DNA of 64,000 bases from Vitis vinifera (taxonomy: Eukaryota; Streptophyta; Magnoliopsida; Vitales; Vitaceae). Positions 6,251 through 58,500 of this stretch are shown piece after piece. The first letter of the stretch is position 1. Each line of letters begins with the position of its first letter. A program made the position numbers and the translations under genes. Below the pieces are notes generated by a model that worked only from the letters and a program-made list of their open reading frames with translations, searched no databases and was not told the origin of the DNA. The stretch covers positions 3,547,001 to 3,611,000 of the forward strand of contig NC_081818.1 in NCBI RefSeq assembly GCF_030704535.1, written 5' to 3'.

Positions 6251-6297
6251 CTTCAAAATTCCGTTTTTTTTTTAATTTCCAAAATTCTAATTTTATA

Positions 6298-6522
6298 TTA
6301 ATTTATTTAAATCACTGTTATTTTATTTATTTATTCTAAAACTCCATTTTTAATCTATTCTTTAAAATTCTTGATTACTGAATTAAATTCCGAAAATTCC
6401 CATACTCACTTTAATTTATTTAATCACTAATATTTCATTCATTTATTTTAAAATTCCATTTTTAATCTATTCTTTAAAACTTTCGATTTCTGAATTAAAA
6501 CCCGAAAATCCCCATACTCACT
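6298..6522. repeat. Tandem duplication, two copies of about 113 bp
   Basis: Copy 1 (6298-6410) and copy 2 (6411-6522) both begin TTAATTTATTTAA and end CATACTCACT, with a shared core CCATTTTTAATCTATTC. A third copy starts (TTAATGT) but is cut off a few bases later, right at the outer end of the large inverted repeat. Confidence 0.8.
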
Positions 6523-7508
6523 TTAATGTATTATATCCCTTCATATTGTAAAATTAATTTTTAATACTTACTTCCTTTGTATTCCTATTATTCCCAAGGA
6601 TTTTTTTTTTAAATATATATTTATATAATTATTTTTTAACACAATTTAAAAAAATTGAAAATAACTAAAATGTGTTCTCTAAAAAATCAAGTTTTTTTAT
6701 CTTTAATAAGAGAAAACTGTTTTCTATTTTCTAGTTCTTAAATGTTTTTTCTTATTATTATTTTTTTTTTAGAGAATAAGAAATTGTTTTGAAAAATAGT
6801 TACCAAACAAACTCTAAAACTTTACAAACTGTTTATAAAAATAAAATTTTAACTTGAAAAACCTATTTCATAATTTTTTTGTCATAAAAATGTAATTTTC
6901 AAATATTTTTTTGATAGTTTTATAGAGTATTTCAAAAAATAATTAGAAACATAGATAATATATCCATAACTTTTACATTATAAATAAGTATATAATTTCT
7001 AGAAATTAAGAAGAGGTTAAGTGGGTCTTTGGTAAACGTGACTTAATAACTTAATTTAAGTCATTAAGTAAATTAAATATATTGTATAAAATAACTTAAT
7101 GATATGATTTAAATTCAAAAATAATTTTAAGTAAAAATAATTAACGTATACTTAAATTTATATTTTCGTTTTACATTTTTTATCCCTATTTGCTCTAATT
7201 ACCTCCATTATTTCTTTTGTTGCCCCACGACCTCCATTATTACTCGACATTCTTACCCTAATTATAATTTATGAAGATAAATATATCAATTTGATGATTT
7301 AAAATAAATTTTAAGTTAATTTTATCAAACAACCTTAATACTTAAAATATAAATTAAGTAATAAGTTTTAAGTTAACAACTTAATAACTTAAATTCAACT
7401 TAAGTTATTAAATAATAAGCATTAAATACTACAAACATGAATTCGTAATGTCCTCCTATATCATTTTTATACAAAAGCATAGACTTGTTTAAAAATGAAC
7501 AAATATGA

Positions 7509-8723
7509 CTACGAGTCTTGAGGAGGTTGAATCCATATGGTCTTTAGGCTTTTCCTACAGTAGCCATAAATCTTAGCATTCCCCGCTTCTCTTTTCTTTT
7601 CCTTCTGCCAAGTTAAATAATCATGGTCTCGAGAGTCATACTCATCAAAGCTACATAAATCCAGAGTTTGAAACTCTGGAACACCGTCGTGGTGGTAGTA
7701 GATCCTGTTTGCTATTATCTCTGTCTCTCCCCCTGCTGATACGTAGAACGAGGTCTCACCCAGAAACATCGCACGCCCCCCCAGCCTACTCACACGCACC
7801 CATTCATTCCTCGACCAATCCAACTTCAATACATACAACTGATGCCAGCACAACAAGCTTTCGAATAAATATACGAGTAACAAATCTCCCTCACATTCAA
7901 GCAAGTAACTTCGAGAAAAGTAGTTAAACAAAGAATCATCAAGATGATCCATCGCTGGACAAGTTGTCATCACAAGACTGAGTTCTTGGTCAACAATGTT
8001 GAAGGCCGCAAGATGGAAGCTACTAAAGTGACAGTAGAAAGTTCCTTCCATGTAGCCTACAGCTTTCAGGGTGCCAAGAGGATGATCATTAGCCACTAAG
8101 TCATGGGTCTTCCATGTTTTATCCGCATGGTTGTATATGTTTATTGAAATTTCATTGCAATTGCGTTCATATGGAACAAACACAAAACAGTGGGGAGAAG
8201 TTGGAGTCAAAGAGAATGTGGCGAATTCAGACACAAGTGACTCCAAGCAAGGAAGAAATATCACCTCTTTAGTAAAAGGGTTAAAGAAGAAGAACTTTCC
8301 TTGCCAGTAGTCATCCTTGTAGAAAAGGACCCAGCTGTATCTGGAAGCACGTACCTCAGCTTTCGCGAAGTTTTTCCTCCCTCTCATTCTTCCCTTTTCT
8401 ACCATATAAGAAAGTCTTCTGTTATGATGAAGTGGTTCGTAGAGCTTGCAAACACTCCAAAAAGAAATTGATTTTGGGTTCCGCCATTTATATTCCATTG
8501 TCCATGGCAACTTATCAATGGCTTTAATCCCACGATTAGGTTGTAGATGCCAATCCTTGCAAACTGCACGAAGACGAACTCGATCCGCTACATAGAGGCG
8601 TTCCATCATCGAGAATATTAAGTCTTGAGGAAGATCCAACCATGACTTGGTTTCGATTTCATCCATATGGCTTTCTTCTACGTTCTTACGCTCTGGATTT
8701 CTCACTTTGAGGGCAGGCATCAT
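7509..8723 (-). CDS. F-box/DUF295 protein, left-arm copy (404 aa, single exon)
   Basis: Single open frame from the ATG at 8723 to TAG at 7509. The F-box lies at about residues 28-60, with WLDLPQDLIFSMMERL followed by DRVRLRAVCKDWH, which includes the leucine and VCK-W positions used for Skp1 binding. The rest is the DUF295 beta-propeller-like region: FFFFNPFTKEVIFLP, FYCHFSSFHLAAFN, LLECEGDLLLVY, LKLDWSRNEWVRV, and a C-terminal KTIWIQPPQ. Such proteins are thought to be substrate adaptors of SCF ubiquitin ligases; the substrate is unknown. An A/T-only TATA-like stretch lies just upstream. It is the most intact of the three copies in this window. The start could be either of two tandem ATGs. 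Confidence 0.85.
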   Translation of the reverse strand: MMPALKVRNPERKNVEESHMDEIETKSWLDLPQDLIFSMMERLYVADRVRLRAVCKDWHLQPNRGIKAIDKLPWTMEYKWRNPKSISFWSVCKLYEPLHHNRRLSYMVEKGRMRGRKNFAKAEVRASRYSWVLFYKDDYWQGKFFFFNPFTKEVIFLPCLESLVSEFATFSLTPTSPHCFVFVPYERNCNEISINIYNHADKTWKTHDLVANDHPLGTLKAVGYMEGTFYCHFSSFHLAAFNIVDQELSLVMTTCPAMDHLDDSLFNYFSRSYLLECEGDLLLVYLFESLLCWHQLYVLKLDWSRNEWVRVSRLGGRAMFLGETSFYVSAGGETEIIANRIYYHHDGVPEFQTLDLCSFDEYDSRDHDYLTWQKEKKREAGNAKIYGYCRKSLKTIWIQPPQDS

Positions 8724-8740
8724 CACCCTCTCCCTTCAAC

Positions 8741-8760
8741 ATATTATATATAAATATAAA
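8741..8760 (-). promoter_or_regulatory. Putative TATA box of the left F-box gene
   Basis: On the minus strand the sequence TTTATATTTATATATAATAT lies about 20-40 bp before the ATG. The same stretch is kept at the equivalent place in the right arm. With so short a distance, transcription would begin very close to the start codon. This is inferred from sequence only. Confidence 0.35.
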
Positions 8761-10097
8761 TTCCTAATTTAGTCTATATTTTTTAAGTTTTCAAATTTGA
8801 ATCTCACACGTTTTACTTTCCTTTTTTTCACCACTTCTATTCTTTAAACCATATTTGGAATGGATAAAAACTAAGAAGGAAAATCAAATTTTATTCCAAT
8901 TAATAAAGTTAATAAAATTAACAAGAAATTTTTTTTATTCTTATGAAAATTAAGTCCAATTTTTATGAAGAATTTTAGAATTTTATTTTAAAATTAAATG
9001 ATTTATTTGTAGAGAGTGAGAGTGAGGATTATTCTTCTCAATTTAGTGATTATTTTGTACTTAATATATATTGATAATAATTTAGTAAAAAATATGTATT
9101 TATAAAAGAATAAAAAATCTATTTATAATAAAATAATAATACTTGCATTTTAATTAATAATTAAATTAGGAGTTTTATATATCATATGAAATCTAAAATA
9201 AATAACAATTTTTAATATTGCTCAAATTTCTAAAACTCTTTTGATTTTAAGAAGGATTACTAATTTCAAAATAAAATAAAAATGGAGGGTTAGATTTCCA
9301 AAATTATATTTTCAATGACCATTTTAATCAAATAACCCTTAGAAATAAAATAATGTCGTTATTCTACACAACCATATATCTATAAATATTTGGGAGGTTG
9401 AATCTAGATTGTTTTGAGCCCTTCCTTACCATGACCATATTTTTTTTTTTGGCTTTCTCTAACCTTTCTCTCAAACCAGAAGTATAATAAACTCATATGT
9501 TAAAAGGTAAAGTAAAAGTTGAATATGATATTGATGCGACTAATTTTAAAGCTAAGAAGATTGCTAAAAATATTAATTTTATCTAAAAGTAAATTAAAAT
9601 AATTTTATAAATTTGAGCAACATTACAAAAGCTATTTATTGATATTTTTAATATTATTTACAAGTGTTTCATTATAATTGGAGCAATTTGTTTATCATAA
9701 ATATAGGTTTATTATTATGTCAATCAATATGTGAAATAAGAAAAATTCTTTTAAAATTTGAATGTGACTTTTTTAATAATTTGATAAATTATGCATATTC
9801 AGTTATATTTATTTGCAAAAATAAAGGAGGAAACAAAATTAACAAATCCACTTTCCTTTTTCTTGCAAATTCCTTATTTTTATAAAGTAAGGTAGTTACT
9901 TTGTACTGAGTTAATCTGCTTGGATACTTCTAATATTTTGTTTCTAAACATAGAAAAATAATATTGTACTCATCCATAAAAAATTAAAACTAAAATTTCC
10001 AAACAAACACAACTTAAGATTTTTTTTAAAATTATACTCATCCGTGAAAGCCCTTATCTTCATTTTCATTTTCTTCTCATGTGTGATAACTGTTTTA

Positions 10098-10740
10098 GAA
10101 AATAATTCTGAAAAATAGTTTTTGAGAACAAGTTTTAGAAATTGTTCTATGAATTTTTTAGAATAAAAGTCTAATTAGAAACTTTTAACCTATTTTTAAA
10201 TATGTTTTAAAAATCATTTTTATATTTAATATTTTATTTTTAATTATTTTGTATGTTTGTATAATTATTTCTTAAAATAACTCTAAAAAAAATACATAAA
10301 AATAATATAAAACGACTAAAATATGTTTTCTAGAAATATTCTATTTTCTATTCTTAAAAACAAAAAACAGAAAACGGTGTTTAGTTGTCAAACAAGTTTT
10401 TTGAGTTTTTTATTTTAGAAAACATAAAACTATTTTAAAAAAGAGTTTCAAATAAATCTTAATGTTTTTAACATATTTTTAATATTTTTAAATATGCTTT
10501 AAAAATTATTTTTATATCTAATGTTTTATTTTTAATTATTCTATGTGTATAATTATTTCTTAAAATAATACTTGAAAAACAAGTGAAAATAATATAAAAT
10601 AACTAAAAGATGTTTTTTGAAAACATCCTATTTTTTGTTCTTAAAAATTGAAAACAAAAAACGGTATTTGATTGTCAAATGTGTTTTTTATTATGAAAAA
10701 TGGAAATTTGTTTTAAAAAACCAGTTCTCAAACATATCCT
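10098..10740. repeat. Two adjacent AT-rich foldback (MITE-like) elements, left arm
   Basis: Copy 1 (about 10098-10445) and copy 2 (about 10445-10740) share the order AAAATCATTTTTATAT, TAATTATTTCTTAAAATAA, AAAATAATATAAAA and AAAAACGGT. Each starts and ends with self-complementary TTTGAGAAC / GTTCTCAAA-type ends. They have no coding capacity, and edges are approximate. Confidence 0.5.
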
Positions 10741-11326
10741 AATATTTTTATTTTTGTGTCTTTTTAATATTCTTGTTTTTTATATTTGAAAATAGAAAAT
10801 AGTAACTTTAATATATAAAAGTAGACTCAAAGTATGTTTTAATCTCATTACTATCACATAATTAATAGTAATAATTACTTATAATTTATCTCATGAAAGA
10901 AGACCTATGTATTGGTTTCATTTTTCGTATCAATCTCTCTCTTTTTTTTTTTTTTTTTTTTTAATATAAAATGTAGAAATATTTTTTAAAAACTAAAAAA
11001 GACATAAATTTTATAACTTTATAAAATATATTAACTTTAGTTATCTTTCCCACTTGCATAATTTTTTTTTAAAGTTTTAGTAAACACCCTATCTCCATTT
11101 ATTGCTTTTAATAATATTTTTTTAATTAAAATTTATTAGTATAGTTATTGTGAAAAAAAAATTAGACTTTTGAGCTTTAAAAAATCATTAAAATCATTAA
11201 AAATTAAGAAATTCTAGTGAAGCTTTTTTGGTCAATACTTTTTTTTATAAAAAAAATAAATAAATATTCCTTGGATTTTTTTCTATAAATTTTTATTTTA
11301 GTTCTTTAAATTACTAGATGAATAAT

Positions 11327-12540
11327 ATTCCTAGCTTCTCCTTGCCATTTTTTACTACTTGTGTTTCCTTAATAACCATTGCTTGAGAGGGAAAAAATTT
11401 TGAAGATGCTATGGCTTCTCTAATGTTTCCCCATCCACTACTTTTGGATCTTTTTGGGATCACCAGAAAGGTTGTTTTTGGGCCTGTTATGAACTTTGGG
11501 ATTTGCAAAATCTGCCATCGGGGTTTATTTTCACCTCCAAGAGGTGCACTCTAGTTTTTTCCCTGTATTTGAGAATAAATCCTAGGGACTTGTCCATATC
11601 TGAAGCCTTCTTCAAATGGCCTCAAAGCCAATCAATCTCTTCTTTCTTAAGACCAACGGAAGAGAAGCTCTATGGCTTCCCTCTGTGAGAACAATCCATG
11701 GCCCTCCACTCTCTTCTACAAACCTTACCTTGGAAGTCTTCCTCAACAATAGGCAAATTCTTCTCCAGCTGCTGTTCATCTTCTCTAGTTTCTCAATTAG
11801 TAATAAATGATCACTTGTTCAGAGTGCTTGACTGTTGTTATTTAGCATGGTTAGTTTGGAATCCTAGGTGTGATTGCTTAGATTGCTTTTCCTTAATTGC
11901 CAAGGCTTCTTCTCCCCATCATAATTTCTTTGCAATCAAAGACTATTTGTTCTTCAACTCAAACCTGATATAAAATCCCTCTGTTAACCGTATTGAATCT
12001 TTAATCTTATCCTAGAACCTTATTTTCTTATTCCTGAATTGCGCAGGACTTTATTCTGAAAACCCTAGACCTAATTTCCCACTATAGGGCAAAATGGCCC
12101 TTCTTAAGACTTGAACTACACACGTAAACTTAACTGTCCAAGACCTTTACCATTGCTCTAACAATCACACTTATTTTGGCTTCATTGATTTATTTGGGGA
12201 TAATATCTTTTATAAGTGAAGTGGGCAAGAACTTGAGTTCCACTCCAACACTTGTGCACTTCAGATCTAATAATGGTTTTAAATCTTCTCAAGAAGGTTG
12301 AGAACTCTCTTCTTTGCCGTTCTCAACATCTTTTCTTGGTTTCTTTTCCAGATGGAGAGATCTGAACCCATAGGAGCTTCATGTGGTGCTGCTTTGGTTG
12401 TATTAATGTCTAAGGTGTAAATAGGTTTATTAATGTTATTTAGAAGGCTAAGTTATATGGTATTATATATTAGGTACTTTTGTTCCACTCTACACGCTAC
12501 ATACTTATCATGCACGCTAAATAATTAAAATGCTAAAATA
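11327..12540. other. Spacer between the inverted-repeat arms, with a decayed LINE ORF1 fragment
   Basis: The only part of the 10.5 kb unit that is not mirrored. On the minus strand, 11508-11314 reads LVIPKRSKSSGWGNIREAI, similar in layout to [18 protein letters not shown] in the ORF1 of the intact LINE at 48.5 kb, so it may be a LINE ORF1 relic. Base composition is more balanced than in the arms. No complete gene is seen. Confidence 0.4.
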
Positions 12541-13126
12541 ATTATTCATCTAGTAATTTAAAGAACTAAAATAAAAATTTATAGAAAAAAATCCAAGGAA
12601 TATTTATTTATTTTTTTATAAAAAAAAGTATTGACAAAAAAACTTCACTAGAATTTCTTAATTTTTAATGATTTTAATGATTTTTTAAAGCTCAAAAGTT
12701 TAATTTTTTTTTCACAATAACTATACTAATAAATTTTAATTAAAAAAATATTATTAAAAGCAACAGATGGAGATAGGGTGTTTACTAAAACTTAAAAAAA
12801 AAATTATGCAAGTGGGAAAAATAATTAAAGTTAATATATTTTATAAAGTTATAAAATTTATGTCTTTTTTAGTTTTTAAAATATATTTCTACATTTTATA
12901 TTAAAAAGAAAAAAAAAAAAGATTGATGCGAAAAATGAAACCAATACATAGGTCTTCTTTCATGAGATAAATTATAAGTAATTATTCCTATTAATTATGT
13001 GATAGTAATGAGATTAAAGCATACTTTGAGTCTATTTTTATATATTAAAGTTACTATTTTCTATTTTCAAATATAGAAAACAAGATTGTTAAAAAGACAC
13101 AAAAATAAAAATATTAGGATATGTTT

Positions 13127-13790
13127 GAGAACTGGTTTTTTAAAACAAATTTTCGTTCTTCATAATAAAAAACACATTTGACAATCAAATACCGTTTTTT
13201 GTTTTCAATTTTTAAGAACAAAAAATAGGATGTTTTCAAAAAACATCTTTTAGTTGTTTTATATTATTTTCACTTGTGTTTCAAGTGTTATTTTAAGAAA
13301 TAATTATACACATGTAGAATAATTAAAAATAAAACATTAGATATAAAAATAATTTTTAAAGCATATTTAAAAATATTAAAAATATGTTAAAAATATTAAG
13401 ATTTGTTTGAAACTGTTTTTTAAAATAGTTTTATGTTTTCTAAAATAAAAAACTCAAAAAACTTGTTGGACAACTAAACACCGTTAACTGTTTTTTGTTT
13501 TTAAGAATAGAAAATAGAATATTTCTAGAAAACATATTTTAGTCGTTTTATATTATTTTTATTTATTTTTTTTAGAGTTATTTTAAGAAATAATTATACA
13601 AACATACAAAATAATTAAAAATAAAATATTAAATATAAAAATGATTTTTAAAACATATTTAAAAATAGGTTAAAAGTTTCTAATTAGACTTTTATTCTAA
13701 AAAATTCATAGAACAATTTCTAAAACTTGTTCTCAAAAACTATTTTTCAAAATTATTTTCTAAAACAGTTATCAAACATGAGAAGAAAAT
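13127..13790. repeat. Two adjacent foldback (MITE-like) elements, right arm
   Basis: Mirror copies of the pair at 10098-10740, so these elements were present before the segment was duplicated. Confidence 0.5.
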
Positions 13791-14850
13791 GAAGATAAGG
13801 GATTTCACGGATGAGTATAATTTTAAAAAAATCTTAAGTTGTGTTTGTTTGGAAATTTTAGTTTTAATTTTTTATGGATGAGTACAATATTATTTTTCTA
13901 TGTTTAGAAACAAAATATTGGAAGTATCCAAGCAGATTAACTCGGTACAAAGTAACTACCTTACTTTATAAAAATAAGGAATTTGCAAGAAAAAGGAAAG
14001 TGGATTTGTTACTTTTGTTTCCTCCTTTATTTTTGCAAATAAATATAACTGAATATGCATAATTTATCAAATTATTAAAAAAGTCACATTAAAATTTTAA
14101 AAGAATTTTTCTTATTTCACATATTGATTGACATAATAATAAACCTATATTTATGATAAACAAATTGCTCCAATTATAATGAAACACTTGTAAATAATAT
14201 TAAAAATATCAATAAATAGCTTTTGTAATGTTTCTCAAATTTAAAAAATTATTTTAATTTACTTTAAGATAAAATTAATATTTTTAGCAATCTTCTTAGC
14301 TTTAAAATTAGTCGCATCAATATCATATTCAACTTCTCAAACTTGGACTTTACCTTTTAACATGAGTTTATTATACTTCTGGTTTGAGAGAAAGGTTAGA
14401 GAAAGCCAAAAAAAAAAAATATGGTCATGGTAAGGAAGGGCTCAAAACAACCTAGATTCAACCTCCCAAATATTTATAGATACATGGTTGTGCAGAATAA
14501 CGATATTATTTTATTTCTAAGGGTTATTTGATTAAAATGGTCATTGAAAATCCAATTTTGGAAATCTAACCCTCCATTTTTATTTTATTTTGAAATTAGT
14601 AATCCTTCTTAAAATCAAAAGAGTTTTAGAAATTTGAGCAATATTAAAAATTGTTATTTATTTTAGATTTCCTATGATATATAAAACTCCTAATTTAATT
14701 ATTAATTGGAATAAAATTTGATTTTCCTTCTTAGTTTTTATCTATTCCAAATATGGTTTAAAGAATAGAAGTGGTAAAAAAAAGGAAAGCAAAACGTGTG
14801 AGATTCAAATTTGAAAACTTAAAAAATATAAGACTAAATTAGGAAATTAT

Positions 14851-14866
14851 ATTTATATATAATATG
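14851..14866 (+). promoter_or_regulatory. Putative TATA box of the right F-box gene
   Basis: ATTTATATATAATAT sits about 35-48 bp before the ATG, conserved with the left arm. The leader downstream differs from the left copy by a short insertion (CGAATAAGTGTGAAG). Confidence 0.35.
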
Positions 14867-14898
14867 TTGAAGGGAGACCGAATAAGTGTGAAGGGGTG

Positions 14899-16086
14899 AT
14901 GATGTCTGCCCTCAAAGTGAGAAATCCAAAGCGTAAGAACGTAGAAGAAAGCCAGATGGATGAAATCGAAATCAGGCCATGGTCAGATCTTCCTCAAGAC
15001 TTAATAGTCTCGATAATGGAACGACTCTATGTAGCGGAGGATTGGCATCTACAACCTAATCGTGGGATTAAAGCCATTGATAAGTTGCCATGGACAATGG
15101 AATATAAATGGCGGAACCCAAAATCAATTTCTTTCTGGAGTGTTTGCAAGCTCTACGAACCGCTTCATCATAACAGAAGACTTTCTTATATGGTAGAAAA
15201 GGGAAGAATGAGAGGGAGGAAAAACTTCGCGAAAGCTGAGGTACGTGCTTCCAGATACAGTTGGGTCCTTTTCTACAAGGATGACTACTGGCAAGGAAAG
15301 TTCTTCTTCTTTAACCCTTTTACTAAAGAGGTGATATTTCTTCCTTGCTTTGAGTCACCTGTGTCTGAATTCGCCACATTCTCTTTGGCTCCAACTTCTC
15401 CCCACTGTTTTGTGTTTGTTCCATATGAACGCAATTACGATGAAATTTCAATAAACATATACAGCCATGCGAATAAAACATGGAAGACCCATGACTTAGT
15501 GGCTAATGATCATCCTCTTGGCACCCTGAAAGCTGTAGGCTACATGGAAGGAACTTTCTACTGTCACTTTAGTAGCTTCCATCTTGCGGCCTTCAACATT
15601 GCTGACCAAGAACTCAGTCTTGTGATTTTAACTTGTCCAGCGATGGATCATCTTGATGATTCTTTGTTTAACTACTTTTCTCAAAGTTACTTGCTTGAAT
15701 GTGAGGGAGATTTGTTACTCGTATATTTATTCGAAAGCTTGTCGTGCTGGCATCAGTTGTATGTATTGAAGTTGGATTGGTCGAGGAATGAATGGGTGCG
15801 TGTGAGTAGGCTGGGGGGGCGTGCGATGTTTCTGGGTGAGACCTCGTTCTGCGTATCAGCAGGGGGAGAGACAGAGATAATAGCAAACAGGATCTACTAC
15901 CACCACGATGGTGTTCCAGAGTTTCAAACCCTGGATTTATGTAGCTTTGATGAATATGACTCTCGAGACCATGATTATTTAACTTGGCAGAAGGAAAAGA
16001 AAAGAGAAGCGGGGAATGCCAAGATTTATGGCTATTGTAGGAAAAGCCTAAAGACCATATGGATTCAACCTCCTCAAGACTCGTAG
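14899..16086 (+). CDS. F-box/DUF295 protein, right-arm copy with a broken F-box (395 aa)
   Basis: Single open frame from ATG 14899 to TAG 16086, almost identical to the left-arm protein over the DUF295 region. A 27 bp in-frame deletion changes the F-box: the left copy has YVADRVRLRAVCKDWH, this one has YVAEDWH. The second half of the Skp1-binding motif (the R-VRLRAVCK helix) is therefore gone, while the first half (WSDLPQDLIVSIMERL) remains. The frame stays open to the end, so a protein could still be made. It probably cannot join an SCF complex normally and might act as a free substrate-binding propeller or a pseudogene product. Few other changes are seen (for example SPVSEFATFSLAP versus SLVSEFATFSLTP), which suggests recent duplication or gene conversion. 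Confidence 0.8.
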   Translation: MMSALKVRNPKRKNVEESQMDEIEIRPWSDLPQDLIVSIMERLYVAEDWHLQPNRGIKAIDKLPWTMEYKWRNPKSISFWSVCKLYEPLHHNRRLSYMVEKGRMRGRKNFAKAEVRASRYSWVLFYKDDYWQGKFFFFNPFTKEVIFLPCFESPVSEFATFSLAPTSPHCFVFVPYERNYDEISINIYSHANKTWKTHDLVANDHPLGTLKAVGYMEGTFYCHFSSFHLAAFNIADQELSLVILTCPAMDHLDDSLFNYFSQSYLLECEGDLLLVYLFESLSCWHQLYVLKLDWSRNEWVRVSRLGGRAMFLGETSFCVSAGGETEIIANRIYYHHDGVPEFQTLDLCSFDEYDSRDHDYLTWQKEKKREAGNAKIYGYCRKSLKTIWIQPPQDS

Positions 16087-17034
16087 TCATATTTGTTCAT
16101 TTTTAAACATGTCTATGCTTTTGTATAAAAATGATTTAGGAGGACATTACGAATTCATGTTTGTAGTATTTAATGCTTATTATTTAATAACTTAAGTTGA
16201 GTTTAAGTTGTTAACTTAAAACTTATTATTTAATTTATATTTTAAGTATTAAAGTTGTTTGATAAAATTTATTTTAAATCATCAAATTGATATATTTATC
16301 TTCATAAATTATAATTAGGGTAAGAATGTCGAGTAATATTGGAGGTCGTGGGACATCAACAAAAGAAATAATGGAGGTAATTAGAGCAAATAGGGATAAA
16401 AAATGTAAAACGAAAATATAAATTTAAGTATACGTTAATTATTTTTATTTAAAATTATTTTTGAATTTAAATCATATCATTAAGTTATTTTATACAATTT
16501 ACTTAATGACTTAAATTAAGTTATTAAGTCACGTTTACCAAAGACCCACTTAACTTCTTCTTAATTTCTAGAAATTATATACTTATTTATAATGTAAAAG
16601 TTATGGATATATTATCTATGTTTCTAATTATTTTTTGAAATACTCTATAAAACTATCAAAAAAATATTTGAAAATTACATTTTTATGACAAAATTATGAA
16701 ATAGGTTTTTCAAGTTAAAATTTTATTTTTATAAACAGTTTGTAAAGTTTTAGAGTTTGTTTGGTAACTATTTTTCAAAACAATTTCTTATTCTCTAAAA
16801 AAAAATAATAATAAGAAAAAACATTTAAGAACTAGAAAATAGAAAACAGTTTTCTCTAAAAAAACTTGATTTTTTAGAGAACATATTTTAGTTATTTTCA
16901 ATTTTTTAAAATTGTTTTAAAAAATAATTATATAAATATATATTTAAAAAAAATTCTTGGGAATAATAGGAATACAAAGGAAGTAAGTATTAAAAATTAA
17001 TTTTACAATATGAAGGGATATAATACAAACCATT

Positions 17035-18604
17035 GCTATTTATTTATAATTAATAATTAAATTGTTGATATTCTACACCCTAGAATTATCATAATAAATA
17101 TCCGTTTAAAGAATTTAAATGAAATAGTGATAAAACCAAAACTAAGTTAATTACCTAATTATAAAAAATATAAATAATTTAAAGAATAGTAAAAGATAAT
17201 CTTGTATTATTATAATATATTACAATATTATCTATTATTATAATAGATAATATTTTATTTATTTATAAATATTATTTATTAATTAATATTATATTTTAAT
17301 TTATGTCGTTTTATGTATTATTTTAATTAATTTTAAGTTATTTATAAACTATTTAAAGCAAATAATTTATCATCAAACTACTCTCTTTTTTTAATATTGA
17401 ATATGTATATATTTAACTCCTAAATTTAATTTAAATTATTTCATTATTAAAAAATAATTCACTCGTTAATTACCTTTACAATAACAAACATTATCTCTTT
17501 CCATATTACCTTTACAATAACAAACATTATCTCTTTCCATGTTAGGGTTTCACCCATGTGACTTGTTAATTTAATTTTTCGAATAATTATTAATAATAAA
17601 TAAAATGAGAATTCAAAATCCGAAGTATCATTTTATTTGGAATGATAAAGAGATATGATATCAGTTATTAGAAATTAATATTTAAAATTAACAATTGAAA
17701 TTAATTTAATTTTAAGTGATATTAAAAATATCATTCCTAGCTAGGAAATGATAGGAATATTACTTTTACTATATGAATATATTATTTATTAAAAATTAAT
17801 TTTTAAAAATTAAATTATTGATATTCTACATTTAGAATTATCATAATAAATTTCAATTTAAATCATTAAATAAAATCGTGATACAACTAAATGTTTAAAT
17901 GATTAAAAAACAAATATATGATAAGATAAGTATAAAACTTAAGTTAATTACTTAATTATAAAAAAATTTAAATAATTTAAAAAATATAAAAGATTATCTT
18001 ATATTATTATATTATATTATAATATATTTCATTTATCTATTTATCAATATTATTTATTAATTAATATTATATTTTTAATTTATGTGTACTGCTTTAATTA
18101 ATTTTAAAGTATTTAGAAATTATTTAAAGATAATAATTTATCATTGATATTAGCAAATCGTCATGTATAAACAACACACCTACTAAACTTGTGAGCTTTT
18201 ATCAAATATAATGATAAAAAAATTATTATTCCAATAAAAATCTTTTTCAAACATTAATTAATATTTATGTTAAAGTTATTATAATGAAATTTGAGTTAAA
18301 AAAATTTATTTGAAACAATAGTGATAGAAAATTTGGATAAATATAAAAAATAAATTTATATGTAACTTCCAATATAATAATGTCAAAAAAACAAAAACTT
18401 TTAAAACATCAAATTATTGATATTTTGAAGTAGAAATATTAAAAGTTAACATAAATTCAGATAATTATAATAATAAATTCATACAATTAAAATAAAATAA
18501 AATAAAACGCTTTTTAAAATATTAAATTATTGATATTTTGAAGTTATCTCTAAGTTGGGGAGAAAAAAGGAGGCTGGCAAATCTATGATTAAACATATAA
18601 GATG
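17035..18604. repeat. Very AT-rich region with a diverged direct repeat of about 330 bp
   Basis: 17044-17375 and 17808-18145 share, in order, TTGATATTCTACA, AGAATTATCATAATAAAT, AAGTTAATTAC-TAATTATAAAAA, TATTTATTAATTAATATTATATTTT and AATAATTTATCAT. Two shorter echoes of AAATTATTGATATTTTGAAGT lie at about 18410 and 18525. No gene is seen. Confidence 0.65.
17469..17540. repeat. Perfect 36 bp tandem duplication
   Basis: Copies at 17469-17504 and 17505-17540, each beginning ATTACCTTTACAATAACAAA and ending CTCTTTCCAT. They are identical, so the duplication is recent. Confidence 0.9.
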
Positions 18605-20574
18605 CTAAAACTGTGGAGGAGGTGCAATCCAGATTGTTTTTAGCCCTTGCGTACAAGGATGATAGCAAATCTTGCACTTCTCTCTATGTTCTTCGAGAAG
18701 CCCAAAGGGATAATCCGAGGGCGACAGAAAGAATTTAGGGGTGCCACGGGAGTAATGGTGGACCCTATTTGCTACCATCTCTGTTTCTCCTTCACTTGAA
18801 ATCCAAAACGACGTTTTACCAAGAAATATCGCCCCACCTCTCAACCTTCCCTTATTGCGCCATGCCTTGCGCTTCCAATCCAGCTTGTACAGAAGAAACC
18901 ATTCGTCATCATACTCACCAGGATATAGGGAATAGCGATCTTTGGCTGCATATGCCAATAACAACTCTCCTTCACCTTCCAGCAAGTAATTCGGATTACT
19001 GAAGCAAAACAAAGTACAATCATCAATAGCATAGTCGTTTTCATAGGTTGGAGAAGATCTAATTCTTGTAATACTCCATTTTTGAGTGGCAGTGTTGAAA
19101 GATGTCATCCGGTAGAAACATCCGAAATGACAGTAAAAACTTCCTCCCATGTAGGCCACGGATTCCACGGAGTCGAAAAACTCAGGTACACGAAATATAC
19201 TGCCGTTCCATGTCCGATCATCCCCACAGGGGCGGCATATGCTTATGGAGATTTTACCCGACTCGGGTGGATGCGTCACAAACACAACGCAATCAGGGAA
19301 AGTAGGGGCGGAGGAGAATGTGGCAACTTCAAACCCAGGTGACTCCAGGTGAGGAAGGGATATCACCGCTTTAGTAAATGGACTAAAGAAAAAGAAGAGC
19401 AAACTCCCTTTTCCTTCCTCTTTGGAGAAAAGCACCCAACCGTCTCTGGACGCACAAGCCTCCGCATCCACGAAGTTGCTCCTCCCTTCCATCATCCCGT
19501 TTTCTACAATGTAAGATCGGGATGCGCTGCTGCCTTGATGGAGATCAGGCTCACGTAGCTTGCAAATACTCGATGTACGGTTTGAATCCGTTGTCTTCTT
19601 CCACATGTATTCCATTGTCCATGGCAGTTTCGGAATGGGAAAGAGCCCTTGAATGAGTCGTACCTGTTGTCACCTCGCGTATCCGATGGTCCACGTTGCT
19701 GCTAGATGGATGGACACGCGATTCTCAACACACAAGGGGTTCTTGATTCAGCGGTTGCACCTGCAAAAAGGCATCCGGACAGGGTGTCCGGACACACCCT
19801 CCGATGGTTTTGTTAGCCATGGTCAGAGAAAGATATATAAATCAGTTGGCCTTTTTTTAGGTATCAAGAGGTTACCAGGAAGATCCCTTTCTTCTTCGTG
19901 TGAAGGCATATATATACAGCTTCAGGGATACTGCCCCTTTCATTAATGGTGAGGAGATATTTTATGTTGTGATGATGATAATAGGTGTCAGTAGGAGCAC
20001 TATCATCCTACGAATGGCTGTCAGAGACCATGGTAGGTGATGCGGCTGTCAGAGATCGTGGGAAGTGACTTGCTGTCACTTCCTCTTGTCTTCTCACTCT
20101 GCAGGTGATGGGATGTGGGCCATGGCTGCTTGTTGTGATTGCGTGTAAGACTCGCTTTACTTTAATTGACCATCCAGACGATTTATATCCGGATGGCTCA
20201 TGCTGATTATCCGGATGTGTTGTGGAGACTATCCGGATGTCTACACTCTGCCAGCGTCGTTTGCTCTTCCTTGGATAGGAGAAGCTGAAACGTCGTTTGC
20301 CTCTTCTTGAGGGGGTCCGGATAGGATAACTGCACCATGCATATCTTTAGGGGAATTCGGATAATGATGGTCCGGCTGATAATACGTGCCACGCGTCACC
20401 ATGAGCTGCGTGCCACGTGTTTCCCAAGGGGAGGGGTCCCTACAGTACCGGCAGCCGCCAACCCTTGCAAACGGCGCGAAACCGAATCCGATCGCAGATG
20501 TGGAGGAGGCGTTTGAATACCATCACTAGTATCTCATCAGGGAGATTCGACCATGGCCTGAGCAGGGAAGCCAT
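18605..20574 (-). pseudogene. F-box/DUF295 gene interrupted by a solo LTR
   Basis: The 5' part (20574-20450) encodes an F-box: WSNLPDEILVMVFKRL, then DRIRFRAVCKGWRLPV. The 3' part (19664-18605) encodes the propeller region with FFFFFSPFTKAVISLP, SFYCHFGCFYRMTSFN, LLEGEGELLLAY, KLDWKRKAWRNKG and KTIWIAPPPQ. Between them lies a 780 bp solo LTR. Leaving out the LTR and one target-duplication copy gives 1185 bp, exactly 395 codons with the stop, close to the neighbouring paralogues (404 and 395 aa), so the gene was intact before insertion. As it stands, the F-box part hits a TAG inside the first bases of the LTR. It is more diverged from the two inverted-repeat copies than they are from each other. 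Confidence 0.88.
19665..20444. mobile_element. Solo LTR (780 bp) with 5 bp target duplication
   Basis: The element starts TGTTGTCACC and ends GGTCCCTACA, giving the TG...CA ends of an LTR. It is flanked by identical GTACC copies at 19660-19664 and 20445-20449. No internal retroelement domain, primer-binding site or second LTR is present, so it is probably the product of recombination between two LTRs. Orientation is not clear because both strands begin with TG and carry TATA-like runs. It is richer in GC than the flanks. Confidence 0.9.
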
Positions 20575-49500: not shown

Positions 49501-52500
49501 TTTGTTGGAGTTTGAAAGATTGGAAGAAGCGAAGAGAGTTCTAGGTCTCGGAAGCACTACGGTAAGGGGGACTCAGGTCCGACTGGAAAAATGGAGGCCT
49601 GCGACGGGGTGCATGCTGGAAGGGGAAAGAAGGCGGGAGGCATGGATGAGAATTGTGGGCCTCCCTGTCTCTCTTTGGGATCAGACCATTCTGAGAAGGA
49701 TTGGTGAGGAGTGTGGGGGGTTTCTAGCAATCGATCCCCAAACAGAGAGGCTTGAAGAACTTCAGTGGGCGCGGATCCTGGTAAAGACGAAAGGAGAAGA
49801 ACTACCCAACGTGGTAGAAGTATGGATTGAAGATCTGTGCTATGTGTTAACCCTTTGGTGGGAGGTCAGGCCGATCTTGAAGGTAGGGTCGGTAGGGTTG
49901 AGAGGGTTGAAGAAAGCTGCAGTGGTCGAGGTTGGGGGTGAGGCTAGTGCACGCGCAAAGAGGCGCGTGATGGAGATGGAGGATGTCGCTAGGATCGAGG
50001 CTCTGCAGCAGCTGGTAGATGGGACAAGGGGCTAGTCTAGTGGGTCGGGGAGTCCGGTGGAGGCCCGTTTGGGTGGGCTGAACGAAAGGGGCTCCGATGT
50101 TGTCCCTAGGAATAATGTGTTGAATTTTAGGCCTTCTGGGCCTGACCCAAATGCTAGCGGGGTTGGGCCATCGCGGGGTGGGTCGTCTGGACTGTTGGGG
50201 GATGGACCACATGATGTTGGGCTCATGCAAAGGGAGGAGGTGGAACGGGCCAAGACATTTTTGCAGCCAGTAGAGTTTGGGCTGGAGTATAAAGAGTTAG
50301 GCCCGTCAAAAGAGGCTTGCATGCTGGGATGGACTGGCCCACGGTTGATGAAAGGGCCAGATGCAGGTATTTCTCCTTTCTGGCTGAAGAGCATGGAGGA
50401 GCTGGAGGATCCAAGCCCTGCGGGGAGTCCAAATACTGATGGTGCCCTTATGGAAGAAGCTCAGAGGTATGGAAATTTATCTAGCCTTGGTGGATTGTTG
50501 GTCCCTGTTGCTTCTGCTTTCTCCCCTATTTTTTCTAGTCGGACCCCTTTGGGGTATTACGACTTTTCTGGTGTTGGTTGGGAGGTTGCCCAGAGAGACT
50601 CCCAGGGCTGCAGTGGCAACGGTGTAGAGTTTATGGAGCAAGGGGCAGTAGCCAATTGGGAGTTGATGGAGGCCAGCAATGGTAGTAATGGTGAAGGTGG
50701 AGAGGAGCTACGTCTGATCCGTACAGAGACACAGGGAGACAAAGGATGGGAAGAGGTTGAGTGGGAAGATAGTGAATTGGCCAGGTTTAGCAAATTTCTG
50801 GGGTTTTCGACAAAAGGCTTGGAGAAGGATATATTGGAGTTTTTGGTGAAGATCAGAAAAAGGAGGGAAAAAGTCCATAGTAAAATTCTTCCGGTCAAAT
50901 CGAAGTTTGAACGGGAGCTGAAAAGATTAGAATGCTCCATTAATTATGAAAGGGGGAAGAAGCTGAGGAATGGGATGCAAGCAAGAGGGGATCAAATGTT
51001 GGTTATCCAATGAAGTTAAGACTGTTAAGTTGGAACGTGCGGGGAGCTAATGACAGCTCCAAGAGGAAGGTGATTAAGGCCATGATTAGGAGTCAAAGGG
51101 TGGATTTGTTTTGCCTCCAGGAGACAAAAATCCAACCTATGGCTGAGGGAGTGGTTAGGAGTCTAGGCACTGGGAGGTTCCTGGAATGGGGTGCTCTGGA
51201 TGCTCATGGCTCTGCGGGTGGTGTGCTGATTTGTTGGGATAAAAGAACCTTGGAAATGATTGAGATGGAAGTGGGTCAGTTCTCTATCTCCTGTAGGCTA
51301 AGGAATGTGGAGGATGGGTTTGTCTGGACCTTCACAGGTGTTTATGGGCCGTTCTCTAGGGTGGACAGGGAGGCTTTTTGGGAAGAGTTAGGGGCAATTA
51401 GAGGCATATGGAGTGACCCGTGGTGTATTGGGGGCGATTTTAATGTCATCCTGTCTCAAAGAGAAAGGAGCATTCAGGGAAGGATAAGTGGTGCAATGAG
51501 AAGATTCGCCCAGGTAGTTGACGATCTAGAGCTTCTAGATCTTCCGCTGCAAGGTGGTGTGTTCTCATGGAGTGGGGGTAGAAATAACCAAGCATGGGCA
51601 AGATTGGATAGATTCCTTGTGACCCAGTGCTGGCTGGACAATTTTTGTGGGATTGTTCAATGTAGGTTGCCGAGGCCCACATCTGATCATTTCCCTATTA
51701 TGCTGAAGGGTGGAGGGTTAAGACGAGGCCCATCTCCGTTTAGGTTTGAAAATATGTGGCTGAAAGTTGATGGCTTTAAGGACCTCCTTCGGGAATGGTG
51801 GCAGGGGACTGTGGTGAGGGGGAAGGCCAGCTTTAGATTGGCCTCTAAGCTGAAGGTGATGAAACATAAAATCAAAGAGTGGAATAGGGAGGTGTTTGGC
51901 AGACTTGAAGTTAACAAGAATTTGGCCCTCCAGCAGGTTGAGTTCTGGGACAGGGTGGAGAGTGAAAGGAGCCTGTCAGAGAACGAAACGGAAATGAAAA
52001 AGGAAGCTAAGGAAACTTTCAAGAAGTGGGTTCTTCTGGAAGAAACCCATTGGAGACAAGTGTCAAGGGAGTTGTGGTTGAAGGAAGGAGACAAAAATAC
52101 AGGTTTCTTCCATCGCATGGCCAATGCCCATCGTAGAAATAATTCCTTGGACAGAATCAAAATCAATGGGGTGTGGAGGGCTGAGGAGCAGGAGGTAAGG
52201 GAGGGGATTGTGCAAAATTTCCAGCAACTTCTCACTGAAGAGCCAAGTTGGAGAGCGGATATTGAGGGGCTGCACCTCCCTCGCCTAAATTCTTGTGAGG
52301 CTGAAGGTTTGGAGGTGCCCTTCACTATGGAAGAGATCCATTCTGCTTTGATGGGCATGAATGGGGACAAAGCTCCTGGACCAGATGGGTTTACAGGGGC
52401 TTTTTGGCAAAACTGTTGGGAATTTGTGAAGGAGGAGATCATGGATTTGTTCAAGGAGTTCTATGTGCAAAAATCCTTTGAAAAGAGTCTCAACACCACT

Positions 52501-55500
52501 TTCTTGGTTCTTATCCCTAAGAAAGGGGGAGCGGAGGATCTTGGGGAGTTCCGGCCTATTAGTTTGTTAGGGGGTTTGTACAAGCTTGTGGCGAAGGTGT
52601 TGGCAAATAGATTGAAGAAGGTCCTTGGAAAGGTGGTTTCAATGGACTAGAACGCCTTTGTGAGGGGGAGACAGATCTTGGATGCCTCCCTTATTGCTAA
52701 TGAGGTGGTTGACTTCTGGTACAAGCGTAAGGAGAAGGGGCTGATCTGCAAATTGGACATCGAAAAAGCTTATGACAGCATCAACTGGAAGTTCCTTATG
52801 AAGGTCTTACAAAAGATGGGATTTGGGACTCGGTGGATGGAGTGGATTTGGTGGTGCATTTCAACTGCTAAATTTTCTATTTTGGTAAATGGGGTACCGG
52901 CAAGTTTTTTCCTAAGTTCCAAGGGGCTGCGTCAGGGGGACCCTCTATCTCCCTATCTTTTTGTCATGGGTATGGAAGCGTTAAGTGCTCTCATAAGAAG
53001 GGCTGTTGGGGGAGGGTTCGTCTCAGGGTGCAGCCTCAAGGGGAGAGGAGGGCTGGTGATGGAGGTTTCTCATCTACTATTTGCAGACGACACAATCATT
53101 TTTTGTGAAGCTAAGAAAGAGTATCTAACCTCTTTATGCTGGATTTTGGCTTGGTTTGAGGCGGCGTCTGGTCTAAGAATAAACCTAGCTAAAAGTGAGC
53201 TAATCCCTATCGGGGAGGTTGAAGATATTGAGGAAATGGCAGTGGAGCTTGGGTGCAAAGTGGGAGCTCTTCCCTCAGTTTATCTGGGGCTGCCCCTTGG
53301 AGCCCATCACAAGGCCATATCTATGTGGGATGGGGTGGAAGAAAGAATGAGGAGAAGATTAGCCCTTTGGAAAAGACAATACATTTCTAAGGGTGGGAGA
53401 ATAACCCTCATCAAGAGCACCTTGGCCAGCATTCCAACTTATCAATTGTCCCTCTTTCGGATGCCAAAGTCAGTAGCGAAAAGGCTTGAAAAGTTACAAA
53501 GAGACTTTCTTTGGGGAGGGGGGAGGATGGAAAGGAAAGTTCACCTTATCAAATGGGAGGTGGTGTGCACTCACAAAGTGAATGGTGGGCTTGGAATACA
53601 GAAGATTGATCTCCTTAACAAAGCCTTATTGAGCATGTGGATTTGGAGATTTGCCTTTGAAGAGGATATTCTTTGGAAGAAAGTGATTGGGGTGAAATAT
53701 GGTCAAGAAGGCCTTGGTTGGCGGACAAATGAAGCCCGCGGAGCCTTTGGGGTTGGGGTTTGGAAGGAGATCTTGAAGGAGGCAAATTGGTGTTGGGATA
53801 ACATTAGGTTTAAGGTGGGGAAGGGGACGAGAGTAAACTTTTGGACTGATCACTGGTGTGGTGATGAGGCGCTGTCCAGAAGTTTCCCTCAATTATTTGC
53901 TTTGGCGGTGCACAAAAATGCAACTATCAGTGAGGTTTGGGACTCTAGCCTTGGTCAAGGAGGTTGGAACCTCAGATTTGCTAGGGATTCAAATGATTGG
54001 GAGCTGGATTTAATAAAAGCTATGTTTAACATGCTGAGGGATTTCAAGATCTCTTAAGAGGAGGACTCGGTGGTTTGGAGAGGCGGAGGTCAAGGTACTT
54101 TTGGAGTCAGAAGTGCTTACAATCTGCTGGCTGCTCCTAACTCCATTGATTTTCCGGTTAGATGCATTTGGGTGGACAAGGTCCCTACTAAAGCTGCTTT
54201 TTTTGCTTGGGAAGCTACATGGGGGAAGATCCTTATGTTGGATAGGCTCCAAAGAAGAGGGTGGCAGCTTCCTAATTGCTGTTTTTTGTGTGGTTGTGAA
54301 GAGGAAAATGTAAATCACATTCTTTTACACTGTACAGTGGCTAGGGTTCTCTGGGAGATCATCCTTGCCTTGTTTGGGGTTCATTGGGTGTTCCCAGAGA
54401 CGGTCATAGAGCTGTTACTTAGTTGGAGGGGCTCTTTTGTGGGGAAAAAGAGGAAAAAAATCTGGAATTCCATATCGGTGTGTATTTTTTGGACGGTGTG
54501 GAAGGAGAGAAATAGATTAGCCTTTAGAGGGGGTTCTTTAGACATACAGAAACTCAAAAATTACTTTGTTTGTAACTTGTGGAGTTGGGCTAGAGTGTAC
54601 ATGGGAGAGGAGTCCTCTTCGCTTTTACTTTTTTTGGAGTGGCTAGCGGCTACCTAAGGGCCGTGTGAGGCTGCTTGTCTTTCTTGCGTTTTGGGGTGGG
54701 GCTGAGGTTGTATACATCCTGTATGCTTTTGGCTTATTTTGCCCTTTAATATAAAGTTGCGCTTATTTATCAAAAAAAACAAATAGATGTTTTCTTTGTA
54801 AACTTGAAGGGGAGTCTATTGATCATATTCTACTTCACTGCATTGAAGCAAAGATTCTATGACAATTGTTGTTATCCTTATTTAGTGTAGTTTGGGTAAT
54901 GCCTTCTTCGGTGAGCGGGATGACTCGTTTTTAGGAAAGAAAAGGAAGAAAGTGTGGAGAGTCGTTCCTCTTGGCATTTTTTGACTATTTGGTGGGAAAG
55001 AAATTTAAGAACTTTTGAAAACAAGAAATAGATAGATCAAAAGATAAAACATTTGTTCCTTTGTAATCCTTTTTTATTTTTATTTTTATGGTAAATAAGA
55101 GAATTCATTAACAGTGCAAAAGGCACATCAAGGTACACATGAAGTATATAGGAAGGGTTCAAAGGCTTACAAGAAGAGACAAAGAAAAGCGAGGAACAAA
55201 CCTATCCTAACAACCTAAAAAACCAAAACTATTTGTAGTTGCCTCACCAGCCCTTACTGCCCTCAACACCCCAAAGCAACCCTTTTTAGATGTGAAAAGC
55301 CAATAGGGCCAACATTTGAAACCTAACAAAAGCCTCATGCAACAAGGTCTGTGATCTGACAGAGGAGAGGGAAATCAGAGAGGGGATAGTTAATGCGTTT
55401 ATGCAGCAATTTTCCGAAAGTCCGGAGTGGAAGGCGGACATTGGAAATCTCTCTTTTAATCAGATTTGTGTGCAAGAGGCTGAGATGTTGGAGGCTCCCT

Positions 55501-58500
55501 TCTGTGAGGATGAAGTCCTGACGGCCCTGATGGAAATGAATGGGGATAAAGCCCCAGGTCCTGATGGGTTCTCGGTTTTCTTTTGGCAATGTTGTTGGGA
55601 TTTCGTCAAGGAGGAAATCCTGGAGTTTTTCAAGGAGTTCCACGACTAGAATATATTCCTCAAGAGTATCAACAACACATTTCTGGTGCTGATTCCTAAG
55701 AAAGGAGGGGCTGTGGAGTTTGGTGATTTCAGGCCAATCAGCCTTTTGGGGGGTCTTTATAAGATGTTGGCAAAGGTGTTGGCCAACAGGCTTAAGAAGG
55801 TTATAGACAAGGTTGTATCCCATGATCAGAATGCGTTTGTTAAGGGTAGGCAGATTCTTGACGCTTCCCTGATAGCAAATAAAGTGATTGACAATTGGAA
55901 AAAAAAGGGGGACAAGGGGGTTATCTGCAAGCTTGATATTGAGAAGGCCTATGACAGTATTAATTGGCAATTCCTCTTGAAAGTCATGGAAAAAATGGGA
56001 TTTGGCGCTAAGTGGCTGAGGTGGATGTGGTGGTGTATCTCCACAGCCAGATTTTCAGTTATGGTGAACGGAACGCCAGCTGGTTTCTTTCCGAGTTCCA
56101 AGGGGCTGCGTCAAGGAGATCCCCTGTCCCCTTATCTTTTTGTCATGGGGATGGAGGTGCTAAGTGTCCTAATCAGAAGGGCTATGGAGGGGGGTTTCAT
56201 CTCAGGGTGCAAAATTCAGCGCAATAGAGGCCGGGCTGTCCACATTGCGCATCTGCTCTTCGCCGATGATACTATAGTCTTTTGTGAGGCAAAGAAGGAG
56301 TACTTAACGAATTTGAGCTGGATCTTGTTTTGGTTTGAAGCCGCGTCCGGGTTGAAAATTAACTTGGCTAAAAGCGAGGTTATTCCAGTAGGAGAGGTTC
56401 AAAGGATAGAGGAGCTGGCTGTGGAGTTAGGTTGTAGGGTGGGGAAGCTTCCGTCCGTTTATTTGGGGCTGCCGCTGGGGGTGCCTAATAAGGCGGCTTA
56501 TGGATGGGATGGTATAGAAGAGAAAATGAGAAGGAGGCTTGCTCTTTGGAAGAGCCAATATATATCAAAGGGTGGGAGGATCACGCTTATTAAAAGCACG
56601 ATGGGAAGTATGCCAGTTTACCAGATGTCGTTATTCCGTATGCCCATGTCTGTGGTTAGAAGATTAGAAAAATTGCAAAGAGACTTCTTATTGGGGGGGG
56701 GGGGGGTCTCATGGAGAGGAAAACTCATCTGGTTAAGTGGGGGGTGGTGTGTGGGGACAAAGAAAATGGGGGGTTGGGAATAAGAAAGCTTACTATCATG
56801 AATAAAGCGCTTCTTGGCAAGTGGACTTGGAGATTTGCTTCGGATAAGGAGGCCCTTTGGAAACATGTGCTGGAAGCAAAGTATGGTCAGGAGGATCATG
56901 GTTGGAGGACCAAGAAGGCTGTGGGTGCGTGTGGTGTGGAAGGAGATATTAAAGGAAGCTGGTTGGTGCTGGGATAAAATGGGGTTCAAGGTGGGGAAAG
57001 GTAATAAAATCAGCTTCTGGACTGATGTGTGGTGCGGGGATTCAGCGCTGTCTCAAAGGTTCCCGCATCTCTATACCTTGGCAGCCAATAGAAATGCAAA
57101 GATTGAAGATCTGTGGGACCAGATTGTTGGGGAAGGCGGCTGGAATTTGCGTTTCATAAGGGATTTTAATGATTGGGAGGTGGGGTTGGTAGGTGAGTTG
57201 CTCCAAGCGTTGAGAGGGGTTAGGATATCTTGGGAGGATGACTCGGTTTTTTGGAGGGGAGGGGGAAGTGGACATTTTAGAGTGAAAGATGCATACAGCT
57301 GGTTGGATAGGCCTATGGAGGTCACCTTTCCGAAAAACAGGATTTGGGTGGGTAGAGTCCCAACTAAAATCATGTTCTTCACTTGGGAAGCGACTTGGGG
57401 AAAGATCTTGACTCTTGATAGGCTCCAAAAAAGAGGTTGGCAGCTCCCGAATAGGTGTTTTTTGTGTGCTTGCAAAGCGGAAAGTGTGGATCACTTACTT
57501 ATTCATTGTACAGTGGCTAGAGAGCTTTGGGATCTAGTGTTGGGTTTAGTTGGGGTCAAGTGGGTGTTCCCTAAATCTGTAAAGGAGGTGTTATATAGCT
57601 GGGGAGGTTCTTTTGTGGGAAAAAAAAAGAAAAAGTTTTGGAGTTCCATTCCATTATTCATTTTTTGGATGGTTTGGAAGGAAAGGAATAGGCTAGCTTT
57701 TAGGGGGGGGGGGGGGGTTTAGCAATTCAGAGGTTCAAAAATTCTTTTGTTTGTTATATCTGGGGGTTGGGCTAAGTTGTATATGGAGGAGAGGCCGCAT
57801 TCCCTTTTAGATTTCTTGGAATGGATAGCTTCCAGTTGAGGGGTGGTTTGTTTTTTTTGGTTTGTTGCTTGTTCTTGGCCTTTGCTGCCTGGTATACGTC
57901 CTGTATACGTTGAGGTTTTTTGCCTCTTTAATGAAATGTGTTTACTTATCAAAAAAAAAAACAAGGTCTGTGATCTCGCTACTCCTCCCTTGCCCTTAAC
58001 TAACAGAGGGGAGTTTTTGTAATTAACCGAACACTCCAATTTTTGGATCTCCCTCTCGAAACGGGAAGTTGAGTTTAGCTTCTTTTTCTTTCTTAAGACA
58101 CAAACACCACAACCCTTCCTTGTCTCAATCTTCCTTAAGAGGGAGAAAATCTCCTTTTCATATCTCTCGATTGACATCCCCACAAGGCTATTGAAACTAG
58201 CCAACTTAGAAAAGAGATCATCAGAAAGAACCTCCTCCCTCGCGGCCAATTGAAAGACTTCAACTCTGAAGACACTTGCTCCTTAGACCTAACGACCAAA
58301 TCTTTGCCTAAAGGGCTTTCCATGATGTTCTTTGGACACTTGAAAGAACCTTCACAAAGCCCCACCTTTGGCTGAGAATTCTTCTCTTGGTCACAATTGT
58401 CTCCTAAGGGTTGAATCAAAGCCCTACAATCACCTGGCGACCCAGCCACAGAAGCAGAAGGAGAAGAGAAAGAGGAAGTCCCTCCCCAAAGCCGAGAGTC

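Follow-up and report, generated by a model that had tools for sequence, protein, structure and literature searches.

Plant systems that resemble a 10.5-kb inverted repeat on contig 14 of grapevine (Vitis vinifera), in which two KIB1-4-type genes face outward, include: (i) the VIM4-VIM2 locus of Arabidopsis Cvi-0, where two divergent (head-to-head) paralogues form the long arms of an inverted repeat, (ii) the Arabidopsis PAI1-PAI4 locus, where one gene is present as an inverted duplication, and (iii) patches of filler DNA, in which ectopic sequence, with a gene-bearing segment, is copied into a double-strand break. In the cited passages, the VIM4-VIM2 genes are 99.86% identical and flank a 50-bp nonpalindromic centre, with start codons about 96 bp apart compared to about 2.8 kb in Col; a deletion is reported to permit read-through and the formation of small interfering RNAs (siRNAs), the siRNAs are Cvi-specific and accompanied by transcripts that span the intergenic region, and loss of the spacer is reported to switch silencing on (PMC13213937). 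The same source reports that the tail-to-tail PAI1-PAI4 pair silences homologues via methylation (PMC13213937). Patching of double-strand breaks with filler DNA by synthesis-dependent strand annealing (SDSA) is described as a process that moves plant gene fragments (Wicker, Buchmann and Keller 2010, via PMC3445842), and the cited passage states that repair of this kind can accompany transposon insertion (PMC3445842).

The grapevine inverted repeat spans positions 6527 to 17027 of the window, i.e., the whole 64,000-nt stretch that was analyzed (contig 14, 3547001-3611000, of a 495,616,077-base assembly in 21 contigs, which also served for all genome searches). Compared to VIM4-VIM2, the two arms differ by about 2% substitutions and enclose a 1.2-kb loop; by contrast to PAI1-PAI4, the genes are arranged head-to-head. 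The locus is probably the scar of a templated double-strand-break repair, in which the adjacent arm was copied backwards and a segment of contig 6 was copied after it. The inserted DNA copies sequence that is still present elsewhere (the contig-6 donor and the parental right arm); by reading, it has no transposon ends or target-site duplication, and the copied segment begins inside another repeat. The locus differs from SDSA patches in having two templates (the reversed adjacent arm and a distant locus) that leave a gene-bearing inverted repeat, and, although cited cases of filler-DNA repair can go with the insertion of a transposon, this site shows no such insertion. Four origins are considered, i.e., this repair, two separate events, a foldback-type transposon and an assembly artefact, and the probabilities given to them sum to one.

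The original prediction placed two colinear, inverted arms of about 4.8 and 4.5 kb, with outer ends at 6527 and 17027, around a 1.2-kb spacer, and all of these are correct by BLAST and global alignment. The reverse-strand self-alignment proposed with it recovers both arms: when the two halves are compared by minus-strand BLAST, 6527-8906 of the left pairs with 17027-14699 of the right and, in a second block, 9152-11326 pairs with 14707-12541 (E = 0 for both). The left arm (6527..11326) has 4800 bases and the right arm (12541..17027) 4487; their global alignment has 97 mismatches in 4455 ungapped columns (2.18%) and 21 indels. Of 13 windows along this alignment, 11 have 1.0-3.0% substitutions, one around the gene start has 4.3%, and the final window, of only 32 columns, has none. 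The longest identical run between the arms is 186 bases, and identical runs of at least 21 take up 3958 of the 4800 left-arm bases. Only the left arm contains 8898..9151, a segment of 254 bp that lies about 170 bp 5' of the start codon of the left gene and has no other genome match among those listed (best 40 of 5054 candidates scored), and the left arm has a 16-bp gap just before its start codon region. No other inverted pair whose arms reach 1 kb is found in the surrounding 184 kb (blastn, E 1e-10). Outside the arms, two 112-bp tandem units that are 78% alike occupy window positions 6271-6494, and the outer boundary of the left arm falls within about 30 bp after the second unit. Inverted repeats are a known class of assembly artefact, which could come from a chimeric hairpin read or a false join; such an origin is very improbable here, as the arms are separated by the 97 substitutions and 21 indels, one of the genes has an in-frame 27-bp deletion, and the spacer derives from another contig with a divergence of its own. 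The grapevine line PN40024 is reported to be 99.8% homozygous (PMC10199708); thus, if this is the source line, an allelic relationship between the arms would not apply.

Of the two arms, the right is the parent and the left its copy. A dispersed repeat (16984..17475, its extent taken from the match to one genome copy, L047) straddles the outer end of the right arm and runs on across 17027, whereas it is cut about 44 bp in at the outer end of the left arm. A genome search with the right outer end gave 106 listed matches (best 40 of 188 candidates scored), of which eight outside this locus cross 17027. Seven of the eight places were examined (under eight locus ids, as L046 and L056 are the same place; C5:10453009 was left out); these were selected for reaching the boundary, the remaining matches being uninformative as they fall on one side of it. 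At all seven, the match crosses 17027, and for the mirrored left sequence the top match ends at 6522-6536 (two best pieces per locus). Short left-side matches at two places (6462-6432 in L053 and 6462-6428 in L055) lie entirely past the boundary, without crossing the left end. The extension of a second, local copy of the repeat into the arm was also compared from three anchors; each scored above 300 of 300 control stretches and above 299, 300 and 300 of 300 shuffles. As the repeat is continuous over 17027 and cut at the left end, the right junction is old. This boundary also bears on the idea of a gene-carrying, foldback-type transposon, with long terminal inverted repeats, that would make up the entire 10.5 kb. 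Long inverted arms do flank a short centre; however, the right end falls within a different repeat, which runs past 17027 at seven of seven places, no target-site duplication is seen at 6526/17028 (from reading the ends, with no systematic scan for transposon ends), and no other inverted arm pair is among the genome matches listed. With element ends that do not match the arm ends, the foldback transposon is rejected as the least probable of the four origins, being barely conceivable.

The spacer (11331..12517, plus strand) is a copy of the contig-6 minus strand. Of the 15 genome matches to 11330-12536, the best two besides the spacer itself belong to a single contig-6 locus and cover 740 bases (9 mismatches) and 464 bases (12 mismatches). 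The spacer corresponds to C6:15752247-15751784 followed by C6:15749128-15748389, two pieces that have 17 nt in common, and differs from this donor at 21 of 1187 positions (1.77%). On contig 6 the pieces are parted by 2655 bp that are missing from the spacer. This donor insertion (C6:15749129-15751783) has a poly(A) end and a 17-nt flanking direct repeat, which the spacer has once, and contains stop-broken reading frames that we take to be plant LINE-type reverse transcriptases. LINE insertions do not excise precisely; thus, the spacer most simply preserves the state of the donor before the LINE-like insertion came in, and would have been copied before its arrival. The sequence favours contig 6 as the donor rather than the recipient because, in a more distant relative (L036), homology to the donor resumes past the left edge of the spacer, over 79 bp (E 7e-7), after a 52-bp interruption; no such resumed homology past this edge is found in two other relatives (L034 and L035). 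The spacer has no Pfam match up to E = 1 (one frame per strand scanned, with stops as X). Capture of the spacer by a Helitron or another transposon was considered and rejected; the donor match ends abruptly and, by reading and by the usual end rules, has no recognised ends.

At the junctions, the left arm and spacer are separated by 4 nt (11327..11330, by reading), and the spacer and right arm by a 23-nt AT-rich filler (12518..12540). A TAGC at 11332-11335 is, by reading, common to the contig-6 donor and the inner end of the right arm, as a putative microhomology in AT-rich sequence. In the filler region, 12513-12532 copies 12493-12512 at 80% and 12516-12531 resembles 12532-12547, which is only weakly suggestive of a filler made of short local copies.

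The arm and spacer-donor divergences (2.18% and 1.77%) are not different (Fisher p = 0.43) and are, therefore, compatible with one event. An assumed 6.5e-9 substitutions per site per year would date the arms to about 1.7 million years, or more if grapevine is slower. An unlikely but credible course is that the inverted duplication came first and the contig-6 sequence was patched in later at an unstable palindrome centre. Long perfect palindromes are unstable and the spacer divergence is slightly under that of the arms; against this, the divergence gap is not significant, and the spacer occupies the entire gap between the arms save 4 and 23 nt. In the proposed single repair, the chromosome would have broken immediately to the left of the parental arm. 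The left end (its last base now 6526) would have been extended by reverse copying of the neighbouring arm, from 17027, inside the dispersed repeat, to 12541. The growing end may then have switched to contig 6 at or near the shared TAGC and copied 1187 nt, before end joining to the right end via the 23-nt filler. This would have yielded a duplicate of the F-box gene in inverted orientation, with flanks of about 2.6 kb (upstream) and 1 kb (downstream). Later, the parental gene lost 27 bp of its F-box, such that the copy now holds the fuller F-box. Each gene is expected to be transcribed outward and independently, from its own start region.

Several points weigh against this single, strand-switching repair or parts of it. 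Equal divergence is no proof of one event, as a spacer patch could have entered an existing palindrome at a similar time, and the comparison is made within one assembly. Support for the direction of donation comes from a single relative of the three and from one side (the left) of the spacer. For arm polarity, an unanchored comparison of the local repeat copy is weaker, with 6 of 500 shuffles scoring as high and the best match out of register. The junction microhomology is short and AT-rich; 16 of 3490 sampled repeat positions score as high as the filler copy, and another direct repeat (77%) adjoins it. The tandem array of the left flank has no homology to the inner flank of the right arm (score 28 compared to a shuffle mean of 27.7, with 150 of 300 shuffles as high); thus, the joint that preceded the event is only presumed.

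Proteins of the KIB1-4 F-box family combine an F-box with a beta-propeller (PF03478). The left gene (7509..8726, minus strand) is a one-exon reading frame of 405 aa that appears to share this architecture: its propeller matches PF03478 at E 2.8e-27 (96.2 bits versus a cut-off of 27.4), while its N-terminal F-box-like match is weak (20 bits, E 5.8e-4) and under the curated Pfam cut-off of 24.3. The right gene (14896..16086, plus strand), also with one exon and of 396 aa, retains the propeller (PF03478, E 1.6e-27) but appears to depart from the family in that no F-box is matched in a Pfam scan up to E = 1. This is because nine F-box codons are gone, as a 27-bp in-frame gap compared to the left gene. 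The nine codons are retained in the left gene and in a pseudogene relative about 58 kb away (L011; C14:3493947-3495090, interrupted by several in-frame stops and gaps); the gap is, therefore, a deletion in the right arm and not a gain on the left. The prediction of two outward-facing F-box genes thus stands for orientation, the reading frames being on the minus and plus strands, but the F-box itself is found only below cut-off in the left gene and is unmatched in the right. Changes polarised by the pseudogene number 16 on the left and 15 on the right, with 2 ambiguous. Between the two genes dN is 0.025 and dS 0.044; for this ratio of 0.56 neutrality is not rejected (Fisher p 0.18), and no conclusion on selection is drawn. 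The interrupted third copy that was predicted is real but distant. This KIB1-4 F-box copy (18617..20559, minus strand) has its propeller at 18617-19651, with 41% amino-acid identity, and its F-box at 20458-20559, about 0.8 kb (19652-20457) parting the two. At least three genome DNA matches touch the F-box coding part, i.e., the left arm, the right arm and the pseudogene (65 listed; best 40 of 3485 candidates); the distant third copy is not among these, such that the family count is a lower bound.

The arms also carry dispersed repeats. A repeat of about 400 bp lies past the 3' end of the gene in both arms (7035..7437, mirrored at about 16158-16535 in the arm alignment) and has many listed genome copies of about 80% identity. 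A second, high-copy repeat of the inner arm (10080..10731, from self-alignment and genome search) consists of two similar units (10183-10470 and 10477-10750), with mirror units in the right arm at about 13106-13675. What had been described as foldback repeats within the arms are thus present, but genome searches identify them as high-copy dispersed repeats.

A separate matter, compatible with a repair origin, is whether the locus functions as a source of hairpin siRNAs, with read-through over both arms, folding back of the transcript and Dicer products that silence both genes and their close relatives. The sequence shows no sign of gene silencing by this locus, and such a role, though possible, is quite unlikely. 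The arms are long, near-identical (2.18% substitutions) and inverted, and the extent of identical runs fits the predicted long hairpin if one transcript crossed both arms; the VIM4-VIM2 inverted repeat of Cvi-0 is reported to act in this way in the cited passages (PMC13213937), and transcription of the minus-strand third copy is directed at the right arm and might in principle run on through it. However, both genes face outward, and transcription from their own starts would thus miss the spacer. Their start codons are separated by 6.2 kb, including an unpaired loop of 1.2 kb, compared to the roughly 96 bp between start codons in Cvi-0. A crossing transcript would need an outside source, for which the leftward third copy is a candidate, or cryptic starts near the centre. 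Few plausible targets emerge from the genome DNA search and 21-mer comparison. The proposal that small RNAs act on the whole F-box family was too wide as first put: of 1198 21-mers of the left coding sequence, none is shared with the third copy, while 8 match it within 2 mismatches and 46 within 3. Neither arm coding sequence has a 21-mer in common with the third copy. By contrast, the pseudogene shares 161 of the 1198 exactly and 630 within 2 mismatches. Candidate targets would be the two genes, the pseudogene and the dispersed repeats, and hardly the third copy. By analogy with VIM4-VIM2, one repair event, with a loop taken from another chromosome, may even have made a hairpin-ready locus. 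Read-through RNA, from the leftward third copy for instance, would then silence both arm genes as well as the pseudogene close by, and the loop would serve as an insulator, such that silencing would set in if it were lost; taken together, this chain is improbable.

Elsewhere in the window, a reading frame at 3137-3598 matches the first part of a TPM_phosphatase domain (22.8 bits versus a cut-off of 22.1) and presumably resembles the thylakoid lumen protein TLP18.3. A direct repeat pair of about 2.3 kb with 71% identity is at 52349-54647 and 55528-57829, and a tandem direct repeat (107 bp, 91%, offset 68) is at 60014-60188. No Rfam families (gathering threshold) or tRNAs are found in the window. 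Among the paper titles listed in a literature search, none names this locus; as only titles were covered, absence from print is not claimed.

The locus is best read as a recent, well-preserved inverted gene duplication with an ectopic loop, i.e., a new example of the known filler-DNA kind. Hairpin small RNAs and new genes can both arise from inverted gene duplications, the origins of which are seldom readable. Here, the parent, the copy, the second template and the order of events are all legible from one assembly, and the LINE-like element that later entered the donor gives a further time marker. Together with VIM4-VIM2, the grapevine locus forms a testable pair, in which the head-to-head layout is present in both and the long unpaired loop is present here.

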